Of a stretch of 64,000 nucleotides of DNA, positions 26,468-36,407 are shown in pieces. How positions within the stretch are numbered: position 1 is the first letter of the stretch; every line of letters begins with the position of its first letter. The DNA is taken from NCBI RefSeq assembly GCF_016907715.1, contig NZ_JAFBCM010000001.1, positions 8,037,420-8,101,419 of the forward strand, written 5' to 3'. The notes below the pieces were generated by a model. The model was not told the origin of the DNA, searched no databases, and saw nothing but the letters and a program-made list of their open reading frames with translations. Origin of the DNA: Tenggerimyces flavus. GTDB taxonomy: Bacteria; Actinomycetota; Actinomycetes; Propionibacteriales; Actinopolymorphaceae. A program made the position numbers and the translations under genes.

Positions 26468-27958
26468 CTACGCAGCCAAGCGTGGTGTGCGGTGTCTGAT
26501 GTGGGTGGCTGCGGGTTTGGGTGGCCAGTCTATGTCGGCGCAGGCGAGGAGGATGCGGGCGCGGTAGTTGGTGAAGCTGCGGAAGCCGAAGCCGATGCGT
26601 TTGATCTTCTTGATGATGGTGTTGGTGCCTTCGGTGGGGCCGTTGCTGGCGTAGGGGTGGTCGGCTCGGGCGAGGATGGGGTCGCGCCACTCGGTGAGGG
26701 TGTTCGCCAGGGTCGCTAGTTCGGGGATGTCGTCGTGGTGGGCGTAGTAGCGGGCGTCGGCGATGAGCCGGTCAAGGCGTGCGGTGACCCTTGTTTTGTT
26801 GGGGAAACGCTGCCTCGCCGTGGTGTCGACGCGTTGGTAGAGGTGGCGGAGGCGGTGGGCGATCTCCCAGGTGGCGCCGACCTGGCCGGTGGGGTCGTGG
26901 TCGAGTAGGACGGTGCGCAGTCGGGTGGCGCGGTGTCCGTTGGGGGTGAAGGCCTCGGGTTTGCTGCGCAGCAGCCGCAGTGTGTCGTGCAGGGGGTCGC
27001 CCTTGCGGCCGCGGCGGCCGAGTTGGTCGAGTTGGTCGAACTGGACTCGGCGGCGGACCAGTTCGGTCGTGTCGGTGCCGAGTTTGACCAGGTGGAAGGC
27101 GTCCAGCACCACGCTGGCCTGCGGCAGCCCGGTCCGTAGCCCGGACCGGTAGGAGCGCAGCGGATCACACACCGCGGCCTGGATACCGGCCCGCCAGGCC
27201 GGGTCCCGGTGGGCGAACCAGTCGGACACGATCCGGCCGGTGCGGCCCGGCAGCACATCGAGCAGCTTCCCGCGGCCGACGTCGACGATGGTGGTGCAGA
27301 ACCGCATCCACTGCACCGGCCCACGGGCCCCGAACACGTGCTCATCGACGCCGACCGCGGTCACCGCACGCGCCTCCGGTGGCCGGCGCAGCGCCTTCGC
27401 GGCGGCCACGACGGCGGTGTTGACCGTGCCCCACGACACACCGAACTCCGCGGCCACCGTCGCCACCGCGGACTGGTCCTGACCGACCCGGCGCACCGCC
27501 TCGGCCACCGCCCGCTCGGTCATACACCGCCGCGGCCGAATCAGCTCACTCGTCTCAGACCACGTCACCGCCGTCGCCGTGGCCGTGGTCGTGGCCGTGG
27601 TCGTGGCCGTGGCCGTGGTTGTTCTTCCTTGCAGGCAACGAGGTTCGCGGCATCGCCACAACCGCTTATGCCACACCAGCAGCACCGGCTTACCCGCAAT
27701 CGGCAGATCCCGCACCACCACCGGCCGCCGACCATGCGGCGACGCGACCACCCCACACCCCCGACACGCCTCCCGACACGCCTCCCGACACGCCTCCCGA
27801 CACGCCTCCCGACACGCCTCCCGACACGCCTCCCGACACGCCTGCGACCCGGCCGTGGTCTGAATCAGCAGGTTCCACTCCCCGAGCAGTTCCACCGCCC
27901 GAGTCACCTCGAACCCCTCAAGGCCCAACGCGGCCGTCCACCCAGTAACGTCATCCAC
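26468..27958 (-). CDS. ISL3-family transposase with repeat-expanded zinc-ribbon
   Basis: A DDE transposase of 496 residues, longer than the usual 420-440. C-terminal catalytic blocks are intact: GVDEHVFGARG, VVLDAFHLVKLG and the Glu block SNGPTEGTNTIIKKIKRIGF. An HTH (AVATVAAEFGVSWGTVNTAV) precedes them. The N-terminal putative zinc-binding region is unusual: seven REAC tetrapeptides stand before CRGCG, and a Thr/Ala repeat follows CREPRC. Both are in frame and due to DNA tandem repeats. The GTG at 27958 (VDDVTGWTAALGLEGF) is preferred to the 28072 start near the terminal repeat. The stop codon lies in the left terminal repeat. Confidence 0.9.
   Translation of the reverse strand: MDDVTGWTAALGLEGFEVTRAVELLGEWNLLIQTTAGSQACREACREACREACREACREACREACRGCGVVASPHGRRPVVVRDLPIAGKPVLLVWHKRLWRCREPRCLQGRTTTATATTTATTTATATAVTWSETSELIRPRRCMTERAVAEAVRRVGQDQSAVATVAAEFGVSWGTVNTAVVAAAKALRRPPEARAVTAVGVDEHVFGARGPVQWMRFCTTIVDVGRGKLLDVLPGRTGRIVSDWFAHRDPAWRAGIQAAVCDPLRSYRSGLRTGLPQASVVLDAFHLVKLGTDTTELVRRRVQFDQLDQLGRRGRKGDPLHDTLRLLRSKPEAFTPNGHRATRLRTVLLDHDPTGQVGATWEIAHRLRHLYQRVDTTARQRFPNKTRVTARLDRLIADARYYAHHDDIPELATLANTLTEWRDPILARADHPYASNGPTEGTNTIIKKIKRIGFGFRSFTNYRARILLACADIDWPPKPAATHIRHRTPRLAA
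27572..27616. repeat. GTGGCC/GTGGTC hexamer repeats inside the transposase gene
   Basis: About seven alternating hexamers encoding Thr-Ala and Thr-Thr steps, inserted between CREPRC and the conserved TWSETSELIRP block. Confidence 0.8.
27761..27844. repeat. 12-bp tandem repeat, seven copies, inside the transposase gene
   Basis: The unit CCGACACGCCTC repeats seven times (last copy differs at its final base) and encodes REAC on the minus strand. Each unit adds one Cys to the putative zinc-binding region. Confidence 0.95.
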
Positions 27959-28090
27959 GGGTCCTGTGCTCCTTCCAGCCCCGGCTGATTCGCAACCAAC
28001 CGAGACTGACCGGCACAGGACCCCCCTCACGAGGAGACACGCCGACAGGTCTGCTACCAGCCCCACCACCACCCTTGGCTAAGAAGAGCC

Positions 28091-28317: not shown

Positions 28318-31218
28318 CTAGGCGAGCGCGGCCAGGCAGGCCTCTGCCCGCGTCTCGAGGTGGCGGTAGCGGATCTGCCGGGCGAGCGCGAGGGCCTGCC
28401 GGTAGTGCTGCTCTGCCTCGGGCGTCGCCGAATGCGCGCGGTAGCTGTCGCCCATTCCGAGGCAGACCTCGGCCTGGCCGGCGAGATCGCCCAGCTCACG
28501 CAGTTGGGCCAGCGCGCGAAGGTGGCCTGCGACCGCCCCTGCCAGGTCGCCGGCCGCGCTGGTGAGCCGAGCGATGCCGTTGACCGCGCGCGCCTCCAGG
28601 CCGGGGTTGCCGATCTCGAGCGCCAACGTCGCGGCGTCCCGGTAGTGCGCGAGCGCGGCCTTCGGTTCGCCCGTCTGGAAGCGCACCTCGGCGAGCGTGA
28701 GCAGCGCGTCGACCCGCAGGTGGGCGGCGCCGGTGCGAAGCGAACGGTCCACCGCTTCGCAGCCGAGCTCGGCGGCCGCGGCGTACTCGCCGGTGCGCAT
28801 GGCCCGTTCGCCGAGGTTGAGGATCACCATCGTCTCGCCGTCGTCATCGCCGATCCGGTGGTACAACGCCCTGGCCTGCCGCAGGCTCTCGTGGGCCTCC
28901 GCGTAGTCCGCGATGTGCATGTACGCGGCGCCGAGCGAGTTCAGGGCGTCGGCCTGGCGCCGTTCGTTGCCGAGCTCCGCGCCGAGCGCTCGGACGTGGC
29001 GCAGCTCGTCGATGGACTCTCGGTAGCGCCCGCTCCGCCGGTAGGCGATGCCGAGGCTGTACCTGGCGATGCTCTCGGCGTTCAGGTCGCCGCTGGCCTG
29101 GGTCGCGCCGATGGCCACGCGCTGGGTCGCGATCCAGTCGTCGGTGTACCAGCGCAGGTCGAGGAAGTACCAGAGCCGGCTGGTGATCTGCCAGGCGTAC
29201 TCCGGCCAGCCGGCAGTCGCGGCCAACCGCACGGCGCCGATCAGGTTGGCCCGTTCCTGGTCGAACCAAGCCAACGCGCCCGCCCGGTCGCGCACGTCGG
29301 GCAGCGTCGGCGCGCGATCGTCGTCGGGCAGGTCGAACGGCGCGGGTCGCGTGGTGATCCGTCCGTTCGCGAGGTACGCGCCTCGGCGGTAGAAGTCGAG
29401 CAGCCGTCCGAACGCGTGCCGCTTACCGTCGGGCGTCTCCTCGGCGTCGGTCAGGTGGCGGGCATAGTCGCGAACGAGGTCGTGCGCGCGGTACCGGTCC
29501 GGATGCTGCTGGTGGAGCAGGTTGGCGTCCACCAGGTCCTCGAGCAGCTTGCGCGCCTCGGGCACCTTCCGTTCGACGAGCGCGGCCCCCGCGTAGGCGT
29601 CGAGGTCGTTGCCCGGGACCAGGCCGGAGAGTCGGAACATCCGCTGCTGATCCGGCGACAGGTGCGTGTACGAGAGATGCAGGGACGCGGCCACGCCGCG
29701 GTCTCCGTACGCCAGTTCGGCAAGCGGGGTTGACTGATCCCGCAACCGAGCCAGCAGGTGCGCGACCGTCCAGGTCTGGCGGTGGTGCAGTCTCGCCGCC
29801 GCGATCCGCAGCGCCAGCGGCAGATAGCCGCACAGCGCGAGGACCTCCGAGACGGCGTCAATCTCGCCTTGCACTCGGTCGCGGCCGGCGATCCGTTCGA
29901 AGAAGCGCGCCGCGTCCGTCTCGGTGAACGGGTCGAGGCTGAGCGACTGCGCGCCGGCCAGCCCGATCAGCCGTTGGCGGCTCGTGATCAGCACGAGCGC
30001 GTCACCGGAGGATGGGAGTAGCGGCTGGAGCTGTTCGACGGTGACCGCGTTGTCGAGAACGACGAGCGCCCGCCTGCGGTGCAGCTGCGTTCGCCACAAC
30101 GCCACCCGCTCGTCGAGCCGTGCCGGCATCTCCGCCGCGGGCACGCCGAGACAGCGCAGCAGCGTGTCGAGCGCCTCCTCCGCGGAGAGCACGCCTCGGT
30201 CGGCGGTGTGGCCGCAGAGGTCGACGAACAGGTGCGCGTCGGGGAACTGGTCGAGGAGCCGGTGCGCCGCGTGCAGCGCCAGCGAGGTCTTGCCGACGCC
30301 GGCCAGCCCGTTGACGGCGACGACCGTGGGGACGCCTGGGGTCGCGTGGTTGGCATACGCGAGCAGCGCGGCCAGCTCGCCGGCTCGTCCGGTGAAATCG
30401 CCCGTGGTGCTTGGCAGGTTGGTCGGCGGCGGGTCCTCCCGGCGTACGGGCGGCCGCGGCTCGGCGTCGTCGCGGAGCAGCTCCAGGTGCAGGCTCCGGA
30501 GCTCAGCGCCCGGTTCGGCGCCCAGCTCGTCGGCGATCCGCGCCCTGGTCCGGGCGAAGTACGCGAGGGCCTCCGCTCGGCGCCCGCCGCCGCGAAGGGC
30601 GCGGATGAGCCGGACAGCGATCGGCTCCGACAGCGGGTGGGCCTCGAGCGTCGCGGCCAGCTCCGGGACCAGCTCGGCACCGCGCCCGAGTCGCGCCAGG
30701 GCGTCGGCGTGCTCGGCGATCGCGCTCAGCTGCTCCATGCACAGTGCTTCTCGTTGTCCGGCGAGCCAGTCGCCGGAGACGTTGGCGAGCGGGTTGTCGG
30801 TCCACAGGCCGAGTGCCTCGCCGGACAGCTGGACGGAGGCGTCGTCGGCATCGGCCTGCCGGGCTTGGCCGAGCAGAGCGCGGAAGCGGTGCAGGTCGAC
30901 CAACTCGGGATCGACATCGAGTACGTACCCACCGCCACGGCTGACCAACAGGGGCGGGCTGTCCGACGCGGAGACGCCTTCGAGGACGCGTCGGAGCCGG
31001 GTGACGTAGCTGTAGAGCGTGTTGCGCACGGAGGCCGGAGCCGACGCACCCCAGATCCGGTCGATCAGGGTCGCCGCGGGCACCACGCGACGCGGGCTGA
31101 ACAGCAGGACGGCCAGCAGGGCCCGTTGCCGCTGCGGGCCGAGGTCGACCGGACGCCCCCGCGCCAAGAGCTCAACCGGGCCAAGCACCCGAAAGAACAC
31201 GGAATGAGGACAACACAT
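28318..31218 (-). CDS. AfsR/SARP-family regulator with NB-ARC and TPR domains
   Basis: A 966-residue cytoplasmic regulator. Residues 8-97 form an OmpR-type winged helix (VDLGPQRQRALLAVLL, LIDRIWGASAPASVRNTLYSY). Residues about 100-250 form the BTAD domain (VDLHRFRALLGQARQAD). An NB-ARC ATPase follows with P-loop GLAGVGKTS (304-312) and Walker B RALVVLDNAV (383-392). Residues about 640-966 are TPR repeats. Such proteins activate secondary-metabolite or morphological genes, and none is adjacent, so the regulon is unknown. The start ATG at 31218 is the only Met before the winged helix; a GTG at 31200 is also possible. Confidence 0.92.
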   Translation of the reverse strand: MCCPHSVFFRVLGPVELLARGRPVDLGPQRQRALLAVLLFSPRRVVPAATLIDRIWGASAPASVRNTLYSYVTRLRRVLEGVSASDSPPLLVSRGGGYVLDVDPELVDLHRFRALLGQARQADADDASVQLSGEALGLWTDNPLANVSGDWLAGQREALCMEQLSAIAEHADALARLGRGAELVPELAATLEAHPLSEPIAVRLIRALRGGGRRAEALAYFARTRARIADELGAEPGAELRSLHLELLRDDAEPRPPVRREDPPPTNLPSTTGDFTGRAGELAALLAYANHATPGVPTVVAVNGLAGVGKTSLALHAAHRLLDQFPDAHLFVDLCGHTADRGVLSAEEALDTLLRCLGVPAAEMPARLDERVALWRTQLHRRRALVVLDNAVTVEQLQPLLPSSGDALVLITSRQRLIGLAGAQSLSLDPFTETDAARFFERIAGRDRVQGEIDAVSEVLALCGYLPLALRIAAARLHHRQTWTVAHLLARLRDQSTPLAELAYGDRGVAASLHLSYTHLSPDQQRMFRLSGLVPGNDLDAYAGAALVERKVPEARKLLEDLVDANLLHQQHPDRYRAHDLVRDYARHLTDAEETPDGKRHAFGRLLDFYRRGAYLANGRITTRPAPFDLPDDDRAPTLPDVRDRAGALAWFDQERANLIGAVRLAATAGWPEYAWQITSRLWYFLDLRWYTDDWIATQRVAIGATQASGDLNAESIARYSLGIAYRRSGRYRESIDELRHVRALGAELGNERRQADALNSLGAAYMHIADYAEAHESLRQARALYHRIGDDDGETMVILNLGERAMRTGEYAAAAELGCEAVDRSLRTGAAHLRVDALLTLAEVRFQTGEPKAALAHYRDAATLALEIGNPGLEARAVNGIARLTSAAGDLAGAVAGHLRALAQLRELGDLAGQAEVCLGMGDSYRAHSATPEAEQHYRQALALARQIRYRHLETRAEACLAALA

Positions 31219-31339
31219 CCCCGCCGGTTGTTCAAGGTTTTCGTCAAGGCCGGCATCCAGCGGGGCCGGGCATGCTGCGAACGGTTCGGTCCGGCTTACG
31301 CCCGCGTCCCCGACGTGTGGCCCAGCAACGGAGGCGGAG

Positions 31340-32815
31340 TTGACTTCAGTCAGAAGTGCACGTTACCGACGGGTTCTGGCAGGGGCGGTCGCATTGGCGG
31401 CATCGTTCCTGGGCCTGCAGGCGGTCGCGCCCGCGGCGCAGGCCGTGCCCGGCGCGATCACGTTCCCCGTCAACGCGACCAAGGCGGTCATCGAGTCGCA
31501 GTCACCACTGCGCTGGTGCTTCGCGAGCCAGTCCAACTGCCACCACAACTACAACGCCGCCGACATCTTCGCTCCCACCGGCACACCGATCGTCTCGCCG
31601 GTGGCCGGCACCGTCATCAGCGCCACGAACGCGTCGTCGGGCGTCGGCAGCAGGGTCCAGATCCGCGACGGCGACGGCGACATCTGGTACCTCGCGCACA
31701 TGCACCACTCCCCCGGGCTGCGCGTGTCGTCAGGCCAGCATGTCGACCGCGGGACCCCGATCGGCGTCGTGGGTACGTCCGCCCACGCGGTCGGTACGCA
31801 GCCGCACCTGCACATCGACATGCTGCCGCCGCCGTACACGGGACGGCCCTCGTGCTCCGGCGCCGCCTGCGCGTCGCACCCGTTCCGGAACCTGCAGCCG
31901 CTGCTCGTCGCCGCGTACAACGGTGGCGGCGGCGTCACGCCGAAGCCCGAGATGGCGTTGCAGACCAACACCGGCGAGCTCTGGACGTTGGGATGGCGGG
32001 AGAGCAAGGACTGGAACGCCGGGATGAAGGCCGGCACCAGCCCCGCGATCGCCGCACTGCCCGGTGACGGGTACGAGGTCGCCTTCCAGACCAACACGGG
32101 CGAGCTGTGGACGGTCGGCCACGCGGGCAACAAGGACTGGAACGCCGGCATGGCGCCTGGCACGAGCCCGTCGATCTGCGCGCTCGCTGGTGGCGGCTAC
32201 CAGGTGGCGATCCAGACGAACACCGGCGAGCTCTGGACGCTGGGGTGGCAGGAGAACAAGGACTGGAACGCGGGCATGAAGGCCGGCACCAGCCCGTCCA
32301 TCACCTGTCTGCCGGGTGGCGGGTACGAGGTGGCGATCCAGACGAACACCGGTGAGCTGTGGACCGTGGGCAACGCCGGCAACAAGGACTGGAACGCCGG
32401 GATGAAGGCCGGCACCAGCCCCGCGATCGCCGCGTTGGCCGGCGGCGGCTACGAGGTCGCGTTCCAGACCAACACCGGCGAGCTGTGGACTGTCGGCAAC
32501 GCCGGCAACAAGGACTGGAACGCCGGCATGGCTGCCGGGACGAGCCCGTCGATCTGCGCGCTTGCCACCGGTGGGTACGAGGTCGCGCTGCAGATCAACA
32601 CCGGCAAGCTGTGGACGCTGGGCTGGCACGAGGACAAGGACTGGAACGCGGGCATGAAGGCCGGCACCAGCCCCTCCATCGCCTGCCTGCCCGGTGGTGG
32701 GTACGAGGTCGCCCTGCAGGTCAACACCGGCAACCTCTGGACGGTGGGCACGTTCGCCCTGAAGGACTGGGGAGCGGGCATGGCCGCGGGGACGAGTCCC
32801 TCGATCGACGCGTAA
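31340..32815 (+). CDS. secreted M23 metallopeptidase with seven 42-residue repeats
   Basis: A 491-residue exported protein with a signal peptide (RRVLAGAVALAASFLGLQAV, cleavage near AQA-VPG). The M23/LytM domain (40-185) shows HHNYNAADIFAPTGTP (His69/Asp75 region), a mid His cluster (LAHMHHSPG) and the zinc His pair in PHLHID (156, 158). From residue 204 onward come seven near-identical 42-residue repeats with the pattern QTNTGELWTLGW...KDWNAGM.AGTSP, resembling tectonin/PLL-like propeller blades. The likely role is cell-wall hydrolysis targeted by a carbohydrate-binding propeller. A TTG start at 31340 is supported by GGAGGCGGAG immediately upstream. It is divergent from the SARP gene. Confidence 0.88.
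   Translation: MTSVRSARYRRVLAGAVALAASFLGLQAVAPAAQAVPGAITFPVNATKAVIESQSPLRWCFASQSNCHHNYNAADIFAPTGTPIVSPVAGTVISATNASSGVGSRVQIRDGDGDIWYLAHMHHSPGLRVSSGQHVDRGTPIGVVGTSAHAVGTQPHLHIDMLPPPYTGRPSCSGAACASHPFRNLQPLLVAAYNGGGGVTPKPEMALQTNTGELWTLGWRESKDWNAGMKAGTSPAIAALPGDGYEVAFQTNTGELWTVGHAGNKDWNAGMAPGTSPSICALAGGGYQVAIQTNTGELWTLGWQENKDWNAGMKAGTSPSITCLPGGGYEVAIQTNTGELWTVGNAGNKDWNAGMKAGTSPAIAALAGGGYEVAFQTNTGELWTVGNAGNKDWNAGMAAGTSPSICALATGGYEVALQINTGKLWTLGWHEDKDWNAGMKAGTSPSIACLPGGGYEVALQVNTGNLWTVGTFALKDWGAGMAAGTSPSIDA
31949..32812 (+). repeat. 126-bp coding tandem repeats, seven units
   Basis: In-frame repeats of 126 bp (42 codons); the last is 36 codons. Units 4 and 5, and units 1, 3 and 6, are most alike, giving a partly alternating WTLGW/WTVGN pattern that points to duplication of pairs. 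High DNA identity indicates recent expansion or gene conversion. Confidence 0.93.
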
Positions 32816-32822
32816 TGCACGT

Positions 32823-32863
32823 CGCCGGCGCCTTGTTGGGCTCAGCCCTTCAGGGCGCCGGCG
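32823..32863. terminator. bidirectional terminator overlapping the permease 3' end
   Basis: CGCCGGCGCC (32823-32832) pairs with GGCGCCGGCG (32854-32863), and the loop contains a second small hairpin, GGGCT/AGCCC. It lies between the convergent M23 peptidase and sugar-permease genes and includes the last codons of the permease. Confidence 0.65.
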
Positions 32864-33657
32864 GTGAGGCCGGCCATGAACTGCTTGCCCGCCAGCACGA
32901 ACGCGATGAAGATCGGCAGCACGCTGATCACGCTGCCGAGCATCACGGCCGCGGTGTCCTGCCCGTACAGCGTGTTCAGGCTCGCGATCGCCAACGGGAG
33001 CGTGAAGTTCGACTGCGAGTTCAGCACGATCAGCGGGATCTGGAACGCGGTCCAGGTCGCCATGAACGTCCAGATCCCCAACGCACCAAGGCCGGGCCGG
33101 ATCAGCGGCAGCACCACGGTCCAGTACGTACGCCAGTCACCGGCGCCGTCGATGCGTGCCGCGTCGTACAGGTCGGGCGGAACGGTCTGCAGGATGATCT
33201 GCCGCATCCAGAACACCGCGAAGCCGTTCGCCGCGCCCGGAATGATCAACGGCCACAGGGTGTCGATCCAGCCGAGGCGGGCGATCAGCACGTACCAAGG
33301 GATCAGGCCGACCAGCCCGGGCACGAAGATCGTCGCCAGCACGAAGCGCCACATCCACTTGGCGCCGGGCGCGTCGCGGAACCGCGCGAAGCCGAAGCCC
33401 ACCAACGACGACAGCAACAACACCAACGCCGTATGGGCCAACGCCACCAGGACGCTGTTGAACACGGCCTGCGGCAGCGCGACGACCTCGAGCAGCCGGT
33501 CCCAGTTCTCGGAGAGGTTGCCGCCGGGCAGCAGCGGCGGCGGGAACTTGTAGATGTCGTCGTTGGAGTGCGTCGCGAGAACGAGCATCCAGTAGAACGG
33601 GAACACGAAGACGAGCGCGATCAGCCAGATCCACGCGGTGATGACTCTACGGGCCAT
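32842..33657 (-). CDS. carbohydrate ABC transporter permease (MalG-like, CUT1)
   Basis: A 271-residue inner-membrane permease with six helices. The EAA-loop is YDAARIDGAGDWRTYWTVVL followed by PLIRPGLGALG, the contact for the ATPase. The substrate is unknown. It is last in a three-gene operon with the MalF-like permease (six-base gap) and the binding protein. No ATPase gene is present, so an MsiK-type shared ATPase encoded elsewhere is expected. Confidence 0.94.
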   Translation of the reverse strand: MARRVITAWIWLIALVFVFPFYWMLVLATHSNDDIYKFPPPLLPGGNLSENWDRLLEVVALPQAVFNSVLVALAHTALVLLLSSLVGFGFARFRDAPGAKWMWRFVLATIFVPGLVGLIPWYVLIARLGWIDTLWPLIIPGAANGFAVFWMRQIILQTVPPDLYDAARIDGAGDWRTYWTVVLPLIRPGLGALGIWTFMATWTAFQIPLIVLNSQSNFTLPLAIASLNTLYGQDTAAVMLGSVISVLPIFIAFVLAGKQFMAGLTAGALKG

Positions 33658-33663
33658 TCTCGA

Positions 33664-34593
33664 TCACGTCCTGACCCGAAGCAGGCGGCTGTTGACGATG
33701 GTGAAGACCGCGATCAGCGCGAACATGATCCACGAGAGCGCCGACGCAGTGCCGAACTCGAACTCGGTGAACGCCGTGCGGAACAGCATCGTTCCCATCA
33801 CCTCCGCCGCCTGGTCGGTCCCGCCGGAGCCGTTCGTCAGCACGAACGGCTCGTCGAACAGCTGGAACGCACCGACGGTCGAGGAGGTCGCGCTGAAGAA
33901 GATGATCGGCAGCATCAGCGGAACGGTGACGCGCCAGAACACCTGTCGCCCGTTCGCGCCGTCCACGCGGGCCGCGTCGTAGAGCTCGCGCGGCACCGAC
34001 TGCAACCCGGCGACGAACAGCAGCAGGTGGAAGCCGAGGAACCGCCAGGTGATCATCACGATCACGATCGGCTTGATCCAGCCCGTCGAGGCGAGCCAGT
34101 CGAACGTGACGCGGTCGCCGGTGAGCACCGACAGCGCCGCGTTCATCAGGCCGGCGTTGGTGGAGAACAGGACGCTCATGATGATCGCGATCACCGCGGG
34201 CGCGGCGAGCATCGGCAGCAGGAACACCATGCGGAGCGTGCCGCCGCCGACGAGGACGTACTCGTTGATCAGGTACGCCAGGACGAACGCCAACCCACAG
34301 GTGATGACGGTCGAGCCGATCCAGATGAAGATCGTGTTGCCGACCGCCTTGGCGAACAGCGGGTCGGTCAGGATCGTTGCGTAGTTGGCCAAACCGACGA
34401 ACTTCGCTGGATTCAGGCCGTCCCAGTCGGTGAGGCCGATCCAGATCGCGGCGATGATCGGGAGCAGCCCGAAGATCCCGAACAGGACGAAGAACGGCGA
34501 CACCATCAGGTAGAACGTGCGGTGCTGACGGAACCGCCTCGTCTTCACCGCCCGCGCGGCGGGGGTGGTCGTCGTCGCGGTGGCGGCCGTCAC
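33664..34593 (-). CDS. carbohydrate ABC transporter permease (MalF-like, CUT1)
   Basis: A 309-residue permease with six helices and the EAA-loop YDAARVDGANGRQVFWRVTV. A basic N-terminal tail (VKTRRFRQHRTFYLMVSPFF) precedes the first helix. The start codon overlaps the stop of the solute-binding-protein gene by four bases. It pairs with the downstream MalG-like subunit. Confidence 0.94.
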   Translation of the reverse strand: MTAATATTTTPAARAVKTRRFRQHRTFYLMVSPFFVLFGIFGLLPIIAAIWIGLTDWDGLNPAKFVGLANYATILTDPLFAKAVGNTIFIWIGSTVITCGLAFVLAYLINEYVLVGGGTLRMVFLLPMLAAPAVIAIIMSVLFSTNAGLMNAALSVLTGDRVTFDWLASTGWIKPIVIVMITWRFLGFHLLLFVAGLQSVPRELYDAARVDGANGRQVFWRVTVPLMLPIIFFSATSSTVGAFQLFDEPFVLTNGSGGTDQAAEVMGTMLFRTAFTEFEFGTASALSWIMFALIAVFTIVNSRLLRVRT

Positions 34594-35915
34594 GCGAGCT
34601 TGCCCTCGACGTCGGCCTGCGCCCTCGCCAGCGCGTCTCGTACGGACCGGACGTTGTGCACGACGTCGTTGACCGCGGTCGACAGGGCGGTGTTGGCGAT
34701 CGTGTCGTTCGGGTTCGTCACCGGGGGCTTCATCGTGGCGGACACCTCACTGAAGACCGTGTTGACGTTCTGGTTGGCGTAGAAGGGGTCGGGCTTGTTG
34801 ATCCACGGCTCCTGCCAGGCCGTCTTCCAGGCGGGGTAGAGGTCGCGCTGGTACATCGCGTCGAGGCTCTCGGAGTCCTGCGTGACCCACTTGCAGAACT
34901 CCCAGGCGGCCAGCTGGTTGCGGCTGCTCTGCAGGACGCCGATGAAGTCGCCGCCGTAGTTGAACGCGCTGACCCCGTTCGTCGCCGGCGCGAGCGCGAC
35001 GCCCCACTTGCCGGCGCTGTCCGGGGCGTACTGCGCCTTGATCAGGCCGCCGAACCAGTTGCCGGACAGGAACGTGACGATGTTGCCCGCGTTGATCGCG
35101 GCACCGCGTTCCTGGGAGGACATGTCCGGGGCGAGCAGGCCGTCCTTCTGCAGGCCGATCGCGAACTCGAGCGCGTCGACGACCACGTCGCTGTCGAGCT
35201 GCGGCTGGCCGCTCTCGTCGAAGTAGGAGACGCCGTTCTGGGCCTGCAGGACGCGGATCAGCGTGTCGGGGGCGTCGAGTAGCCAGCGTTCGCCCTTCTT
35301 GGCGACCTTGCGTCCCTGCTCGACGAAGGTCGGCCAGTCCTCGAGTGCCTCGTGGACGTCGTCGGGCTCGGTGGGAAGGCCGGCCTGTTCGAAGACGTCG
35401 CGGCGATAGAACATTCCGCCCGGGCCGGTGTTCTTAGGTAAGGCAAAGATTCGCCCAGAGTTCTGGTCGGCGACGTACTTCCAGGAGAAGTCGGCGTATT
35501 TGTCGGCGACTTCTCCGGCGTTGAACGGTGGTTTCTTGAGATCGACAAATCCCGGTTTGCTGGCGAAGTTCGAGACCGAAGTGATCTCGACCATCGCGAC
35601 GTCCGGCCCGGAGCCGGAGACGAGTGCGCCGAGCACCTTGGTGTTGTAGCTTCCGCCGAACGCGCCGCTGAAGCCCTGGACGTTGACCTTGATCTTGGGA
35701 AACTTCCGCTCGAACGCGGGGATGGTCTCGAGGAACGTCCGGTCGTTGTCCGGCCAGGTCCACACCATGATCTCGCCCGTGCCGTCGCCGAGCGCCCCGT
35801 CCCGGGACAGACCACAGGCGGCGAGGAGAGCTCCCGCGGCAGTACCAGCCGCGGCACCAAGCAGGTGCCGGCGGGACAGGCCGCGGGGAGTCATCTTCCT
35901 CATCGAACCGGACAT
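34590..35915 (-). CDS. ABC transporter sugar-binding lipoprotein (family 1)
   Basis: A 441-residue extracellular binding protein. The N terminus has a twin-arginine motif (SRRHLLGAAAGTAAGALLAAC) ending in a lipobox, so it is probably a Tat-exported lipoprotein. Family blocks seen are VWTWPDNDRTFLETIPAFE, GPDVAMVEITSV and FLSGNWFGGLIK near the ligand face. The ATG at 35915 with AGG upstream is favoured, though 35903 is also possible. It is first in the operon; its promoter lies in the 490-base region shared with the divergent genes. Confidence 0.92.
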   Translation of the reverse strand: MSGSMRKMTPRGLSRRHLLGAAAGTAAGALLAACGLSRDGALGDGTGEIMVWTWPDNDRTFLETIPAFERKFPKIKVNVQGFSGAFGGSYNTKVLGALVSGSGPDVAMVEITSVSNFASKPGFVDLKKPPFNAGEVADKYADFSWKYVADQNSGRIFALPKNTGPGGMFYRRDVFEQAGLPTEPDDVHEALEDWPTFVEQGRKVAKKGERWLLDAPDTLIRVLQAQNGVSYFDESGQPQLDSDVVVDALEFAIGLQKDGLLAPDMSSQERGAAINAGNIVTFLSGNWFGGLIKAQYAPDSAGKWGVALAPATNGVSAFNYGGDFIGVLQSSRNQLAAWEFCKWVTQDSESLDAMYQRDLYPAWKTAWQEPWINKPDPFYANQNVNTVFSEVSATMKPPVTNPNDTIANTALSTAVNDVVHNVRSVRDALARAQADVEGKLA

Positions 35916-36407
35916 GGGATGACCTGGGAACCTCGATGACCGCATCAGGCCGGACTTGTGCAGGGGTGGCCACGCACCAGGGCGAGCATCGCGTGGATCC
36001 CGCGGGCGGTTCGTACCGATTGACTGGCCTGACAACTTGGCTTCCGAGGGCACGAAACCTAGATGTCGCGCAGCTAAACACCGAACGTCGAAGCGTTGGC
36101 GATTTGTCCGATTCAACCACTTTCAAACGTTCCAGAATCGCTTCACCTGTCGGGTGGCCTGACCACTTTTCGGGGCCTGTTACGGAACAGTGATTGAACA
36201 GCTTGGAATTCGCTGCGTAATTTCCTGGAAATTGAACCTGAGACCGCAAATACTGGCCTCTCCAAGGAAACGTCCCGGGCCCGTCCTACGTCTATCAGAC
36301 ATGACAGACCCACCACGGGACGGTCCGATCGGAACCCGCTGGATAAGGACCCACCGGCACCCAAAGATGTGCGCCGCGGCGGAGGTCGCGACCTTAAGGG
36401 GTGCACC
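35916..36407. other. non-coding divergent control region
   Basis: About 490 bases, markedly more AT-rich than the surroundings, between the sugar-transport operon (minus) and a plus-strand hypothetical gene. It contains the 15-bp palindrome AATTTCCTGGAAATT (36219-36233), a good operator candidate, and several A/T-rich stretches fit for promoters on both strands. Open frames here have no coding character. Confidence 0.5.

Follow-up and report, generated by a model that had tools for sequence, protein, structure and literature searches.

The 64,000-nucleotide stretch of DNA analysed here (the window) corresponds to positions 8,037,420-8,101,419 within the 8.52-Mb single-contig genome of Tenggerimyces flavus. 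At 31340-32815 it carries a gene whose 491-residue product joins a peptidase domain of the M23 family to a C-terminal array of seven repeats, which are predicted to fold into a closed β-propeller. The protein is probably exported, as judged by eye from its signal-peptide-like start. Head to head with this gene lies that of a large AfsR/SARP-type regulator, and the coordinates of both genes and of their parts are collected in the table below.

The repeats begin at residues 204, 246, 288, 330, 372, 414 and 456. The spacing is always 42, in agreement with the seven 42-residue repeats that a preliminary description had placed in this open reading frame, and the seventh unit has 36 residues instead of 42. 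The 126-nucleotide unit was also recovered by direct-repeat and tandem-repeat programs. At an offset of 126 residues the self-identity of the protein is 0.81 versus a maximum of 0.166 among 500 shuffles, and the repeat signal is thus far above chance. Where present, 23 of the 42 unit positions are invariant. Identity between units ranges from 62 to 93% in the protein (the median internal blade identity is 74%) and from 62 to 87% in the DNA, for which the earlier term "near-identical" is too strong. By the Nei-Gojobori method (NG86), synonymous divergence (dS) between blades is 0.34-0.98 and nonsynonymous divergence (dN) is 0.04-0.40. Such dS values suggest that the expansion is not very recent, and they weaken the earlier proposal that it was. 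Taken as a block, blades 1-3 are similar to blades 4-6 (a 378-nucleotide unit; protein identity of 81% at 126 residues, dS 0.46, dN 0.09), which points to a three-blade duplication. The array therefore arose by blade duplication, probably with one step of this size, and has since been kept by purifying selection.

The AlphaFold2 model of residues 33-491 was computed from an alignment of 13 sequences. Its mean predicted local distance difference test score (pLDDT) is 77.2, and across the repeats, which start at about model residue 171, successive blocks score 85-98. The 28 strands of the model are arranged as 3 + 6x4 + 1, because blade 1 is without its first strand, which is supplied by the C-terminal strand (456-458 in model numbering). 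Closure of the ring by a terminal strand is usual for propellers. The prediction is thus a closed seven-bladed ring and not an extended fiber, which bears out the propeller guessed at earlier. A single-sequence model had a mean pLDDT of 31.7 and was set aside.

In a Foldseek comparison with the PDB, the first 22 rows are all PLL (including PLL2-5) or PHL lectins, with expectation values (E) of 4.4e-14 to 2.8e-12. They are followed by six-bladed fucose lectins, from 1.7e-7, and by HERC1 at 2.4e-5. VIA-align gives the PLL/PHL rows Z scores of 25.9-28.8 over 274-275 residues at 2.7-2.9 Å; below them are BP39L (Z 24.7) and UVR8 (Z 19.1). A profile built from three related propellers (profile A1) likewise finds PLL3 first (3.7e-11), then PLL (2e-7) and PHL (3.2e-5), with the RCC1-like RPGR far behind at 0.03-0.04. 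As PLL and PHL lectins fill the first 22 rows of Foldseek, PLL is the apter half of the earlier label "tectonin/PLL-like". Neither tectonin nor tachylectin is named in the rows shown of profile A1, Foldseek and VIA-align, an absence from a list that excludes nothing. Up to E 1, Pfam has no propeller model for the window protein, and up to E 0.01 no family for two PLL-like proteins of other genomes (L012, L014); DUF346 is named as PLL-like in PMC7778903. Armadillo-repeat chains were also matched in the PDB by the single sequence (best 8.8e-13). These matches were rejected as reflecting the shared 42-residue period, as both the model and the profile search favor propellers.

Each of the seven blades contains two tryptophans, W215 and W225 in the first blade and then every 42 residues. 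Counted from the alignment rows of profile A1, the two columns align with Trp203 and Trp218 of PLL3. In the crystal of PLL3 these residues are described as holding Met1 in a pocket that is hydrophobic and a putative sugar site, and the sites as sitting between adjacent blades (PMC6943638). Three of the four most variable blade positions lie in the C-D loop (unit positions 16-19), where blades 1, 3 and 6 carry a third tryptophan; the modeled ring may have two kinds of pocket.

The N-terminal half of the protein matches Pfam Peptidase_M23 (PF01551) with E 4e-17 and 62.6 bits versus a curated cut-off of 28.7. A Pfam match to Apocytochr_F_C fell below its cut-off and was ignored. By sequence the closest solved domain is 9gy1 (5.6e-10), and lysostaphin is matched at 2.6e-5. 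The family match upholds the earlier assignment as a cell-wall peptidase, cleavage itself being predicted, and "lysostaphin-like" holds at the level of the family; the zinc motif is of another subtype. In the sequence alignment H69, D75, H120, H156 and H158 occupy the M23 motif positions, and we take their zinc-ligand and catalytic roles to be those of LytM-type enzymes. The first motif, H68-H69-N-Y-N-A-A-D75, has the spacing H69-x5-D75 instead of the canonical HxxxD. In an alignment with 21 M23 sequences, the window domain is 22-32% identical to them. For comparison of the motif, 21 M23 loci with E up to 1e-11 were taken from 20 other genomes of the class out of 394 searched. Ten of these loci have HHDYPA-x-D at the corresponding position (L048, L051, L052, L055, L057, L058, L060, L061, L063, L066) and retain an HLH or HVH ending, although they are not ten independent cases: a single genome contributes both L048 and L066, one genus L055, L057 and L061, and another genus L051 and L063. 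A motif of the HHDYPA-x-D type is also present in L004, another M23 gene of the T. flavus genome. With this form of the domain, found in Actinomycetota, the window protein shares the domain match, the zinc and catalytic histidine positions and the PH-x-H ending, but it reads HHNYNAAD. Because the spacing recurs in ten of the 21 loci and in L004 with the other histidine positions retained, the variant motif looks like an M23 subtype and not like decay.

Relatives of the ring were collected by a profile scan of genome contigs, in which 13 loci were retained out of 197 pattern matches; with L008, L009 and the window protein, 16 proteins were counted. In the blade counts, pieces shorter than 19 model positions were omitted, and the distant L011 and L013 and the PLL-like L012 and L014 were excluded. 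Thirteen of the 16 proteins have seven blades, the exceptions being L020 with six, L027 with four next to masked sequence, and L008 with five weak ones. The draft-genome locus L020:3827-5566 has a whole blade fewer than its near twin L018, either a real loss or an assembly collapse. Pfam, applied to the set without L020 and L027, shows the ring beside M23 in L019, L021 and L022, beside CHAP in L008, L016 and L024, and beside an Rv2525c glycoside-hydrolase-like domain in L006, a protein from another genome of the same order that is identical after its first residue to L023 of Microlunatus flavus. In L026 a bacterial immunoglobulin-like domain is just under its cut-off, CopC just over, and a weak Ntox37 under. 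The record of L009 says CHAP, but Pfam showed none. This locus (L009:3318-5915) lies on a linear plasmid of Streptomyces camelliae, and its blades 4 and 6, and likewise 5 and 7, are identical in the aligned columns, the mark of a duplication of two blades at a later date.

A tree was built from 97 blades of 14 proteins, with L008 and L027 left out; in it the seven blades of the window protein cluster together (support 0.997), amid those of the stand-alone protein L015. In Curtobacterium, Clavibacter and a Microbacteriaceae strain, the M23-propeller proteins (L019, L021, L022) resemble the window protein in domain order and in having seven blades. Unlike it, they have a peptidase with the canonical HxxxD, and their blades group mostly by position across species. 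This difference in grouping suggests that the union of M23 domain and ring in the window protein may be independent of the Microbacteriaceae ones; the M23 tree, in which support beside the window domain is 0.393, is not strong enough to show where the fusion belongs.

The large scans scored only part of each genome's candidates, and the counts of distribution are lower bounds. With its own genome included, the ring was found in 1 of 8 genomes of the family, 2 of 57 relatives, 3 of 396 genomes of the phylum and, by single sequence, 1 of 394 of the class. The profile found it in 5 of the 394 class genomes, of which the other four (L011-L014) are distant. A single-sequence scan of the genome contig collection gave no match, nor did a search of viral contigs with profile A1 or a search of phage records with the propeller at E 1e-5; at the same threshold, plasmid records gave one match to the propeller.

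Features of the peptidase-propeller locus in window coordinates
Feature	Position	Strand	Remarks
M23 peptidase with C-terminal seven-repeat propeller, probably secreted	31340..32815	+	491 residues, TTG start; from open reading frame, Pfam, repeats and model
Ribosome-binding-site-like GGAGG	31330..31334	+	5 nucleotides ahead of TTG (sequence)
Signal-peptide-like N-terminus, about residues 1-36	31340..31447	+	Basic start, hydrophobic run, AQA; by eye only
M23 core, residues 68-161	31541..31822	+	H68-H69-N-Y-N-A-A-D75, H120 (AHM), H156-L-H158; Pfam match at residues 72-161
Seven blades, residues 204-491	31949..32812	+	126 nucleotides each, last 108; in the model, blade 1 is completed by the C-terminal strand
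Blades 1-3	31949..32326	+	Block resembling blades 4-6
Blades 4-6	32327..32704	+	Block resembling blades 1-3
Divergent intergenic region, 121 nucleotides	31219..31339	.	Between SARP-type gene and peptidase gene
AfsR/SARP-type regulator, 966 residues	28318..31218	-	Trans_reg_C, BTAD, NB-ARC, TPR; head to head with peptidase gene

The guanine-plus-cytosine (GC) content of the peptidase gene (0.696, and 0.921 at third codon positions) is close to the 0.686 of the window, so that composition gives no sign of foreign origin. In the PHROGs collection the M23 part resembles phage peptidases and the repeats resemble a few families of unknown function. These matches were given no weight as evidence of a phage origin. 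PADLOC returned 0 families. Converging on the peptidase gene are ABC transporter genes (32842-36116, minus strand) for two permeases and a solute-binding protein. Beyond the regulator, at 26468-28072 on the minus strand, lies an ISL3-family transposase gene (Pfam 2.6e-47), whose N-terminal part contains seven perfect 12-nucleotide units (27760-27843). At the edge of the window, positions 1-71 are a perfect 16-nucleotide tandem repeat of 4.4 copies.

The divergent SARP regulator of the preliminary description is indeed of AfsR/SARP type, and it is one of 13 matches in its own genome at E up to 1e-100. Upstream regions were inspected for 11 of the 12 other paralogs. Clear divergent genes are present at L079, L080, L083, L087 and L088, and at L084 and L086, where both strands contain open frames, the reading is ambiguous. 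A signal-peptide-like start is visible by eye in four of the five divergent products, whose matches are to a C39-like peptidase, SpvB/FG-GAP, RTX repeats and a ricin-B lectin; the regulator at L088 faces a helix-turn-helix protein. With the window included, five of six clear divergent AfsR-type pairs thus face a probable exported protein, a count that is small, post hoc and made by eye. The surroundings of the relatives do not show a conserved pairing of the propeller gene with this SARP: within about 4 kb on either side, only partial homologs of the regulator were found, in 2 of 13 relatives (L024, L025), and these have NB-ARC and TPR by Pfam but no BTAD. In Actinacidiphila (L024) a large NB-ARC/TPR protein is encoded head to head with the CHAP-propeller gene. 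No promoter or terminator pattern was found across 31000-33000, and no sigma-70-like promoter in the intergenic region. A candidate SARP-type binding repeat in that region (a direct repeat spaced by 12 nucleotides) was discarded, the same score having been reached in 151 of 500 shuffles. The gene arrangement makes it plausible, and no more than that, that the SARP controls the peptidase.

By combining these features it is possible to outline how the protein would work. The zinc-dependent M23 peptidase, once secreted, would cut the cross-bridges or stems of peptidoglycan. Its seven C-terminal repeats would close into a PLL-like ring of seven blades, each with a possible glycan pocket built around the two tryptophans. 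The ring would hold the enzyme by several simultaneous weak contacts on a wall glycan (a teichoic, teichuronic or other polymer), and the peptidase would then act where that glycan is exposed. We consider it probable that the protein is a secreted enzyme of this sort, a wall peptidase anchored to wall glycans through a multivalent ring of lectin type.

Several findings weigh against this scheme. The M23 region of the AlphaFold2 model is poor, with block pLDDT values of 25-80 before model residue 171. Identity to the PLL lectins is 14-17% in Foldseek and VIA-align. Profile A1 also matches designed Cake propellers (2.8e-8 and weaker), with a high composition bias. A search with the single protein matches M23 chains but no PLL lectin among the PDB matches; its propeller matches are weak and fall on RCC1-repeat chains (best 8b6h, 0.0012), and the repeats of L016 match RCC1-type models in Pfam. 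The two tryptophans are 10 residues apart in the window protein versus 15 in PLL3. The pair is complete in four of the 16 proteins (window, L009, L024, L026), single in L015, and absent by the pattern used from the other 11; incomplete in 12 of 16, it cannot provide a mode of binding common to the whole group. Finally, the ring is not always joined to a wall hydrolase: its Pfam partner in L018 and L025 is a trypsin-like domain, and in L015 and L017 no further domain was found.

The scheme leaves room for two uses of the enzyme. It is quite possible, if short of probable, that the protein is a weapon or a scavenging lysin, its ring reading a glycan of other actinomycetes or Gram-positive bacteria and its peptidase opening their walls. 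The patchy distribution of the ring and its reuse on several wall hydrolases fit such a role, and umbrella toxins, as described in PMC13274773, use propeller lectins, seven-bladed families included, against competitors; however, no gene resembling an immunity or toxin-particle gene is found among the adjacent genes examined (AfsR-type regulator, ABC transporter, transposase, SDR). The protein could instead be an autolysin, the ring binding the cell's own wall polymer while the peptidase trims the wall in hyphal growth or sporulation. Binding to the producer's own wall is common among secreted wall enzymes, and M23 matches in all 8 genomes of the family indicate that such enzymes are routine in the group, but a core growth enzyme would be expected to be distributed more regularly than the ring, and we hold this alternative only tentatively.

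Two further explanations bear on the domains themselves. The ring might bind a protein, or give only multivalency or stability, and read no glycan. The hydrophobic sites of PLL are described as able to take a peptide end (PMC6943638), most relatives are without the tryptophan pair, and likeness of fold alone shows no function. The first 22 structural neighbors are nevertheless sugar-binding lectins and the pair is retained in every blade of the window protein, which makes a ring without a glycan ligand unlikely. Very unlikely, in our estimate, is a dead peptidase domain that would leave the protein an adhesin: its first zinc motif departs from HxxxD, but in a spacing shared by close to half of the loci compared and by L004, with the other histidines kept.

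Should the ring recognize a particular wall glycan, proteins of this kind would be modular lysins of natural origin, aimed by a seven-fold part, and the presence of the ring on several classes of enzyme would show how actinomycetes retarget their wall enzymes. If it reads none, the protein is no more than a common M23 enzyme to which a familiar fold has been joined. The seven matching tryptophan pairs offer a direct way to test the idea of binding. A broader speculation, which we regard as improbable, is that Actinomycetota carry a swappable seven-bladed glycan-reading ring on M23, CHAP and Rv2525c-like enzymes, sometimes beside large NB-ARC/TPR regulators. These proteins would form a family of aimed lysins that choose a wall by its glycopolymer, like umbrella toxins but as a single secreted enzyme with no particle.

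By the tests run, both domains are of known kinds, and it is their combination that is little described; no M23-PLL-like protein was described, by title or start of abstract, in the open-access subset of the literature searched with the terms used. The PLL/PHL lectins of Photorhabdus (6t96, 5c9l, 5mxe, 8q82) share with the window protein the closed ring of seven four-stranded blades, which in the latter is predicted, and two aligned tryptophans in each blade. The window protein differs from them in its 42-residue blades, the closer tryptophans (by five residues), the fused peptidase, the signal-peptide-like start and the low identity. RCC1-type seven-bladed propellers are related to it by the weak sequence matches mentioned above (8b6h, L016) and by lower-ranked fold matches (HERC1 in Foldseek, UVR8 in VIA-align), but in both the fold comparisons and the profile search they come a long way after the PLL rows. 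With its median blade identity the window protein exceeds the 60% cut-off used for highly repetitive β-propellers in PMC9218822, which describes Actinobacteria as among the phyla richest in such propellers; the term PLL is absent from the main text of that paper.

The UmbA lectins of the umbrella toxins of Streptomyces, as described in PMC13274773, are likewise actinomycete propeller lectins, some of which read glycans of the target-cell wall; one six-bladed propeller binds the teichuronic acid of the target wall. The window protein, unlike UmbA, joins a peptidase of another family directly, and it does not have the trypsin-lectin union of UmbA, as Pfam finds in it M23 and no trypsin family. 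In three of the related proteins (L018, L025 and, by similarity, L020) the ring is N-terminal to a trypsin-like domain, an order that is the reverse of the one described for UmbA4 (PMC13274773). The umbrella-toxin propeller that binds teichuronic acid is the closest functional precedent for the window protein.
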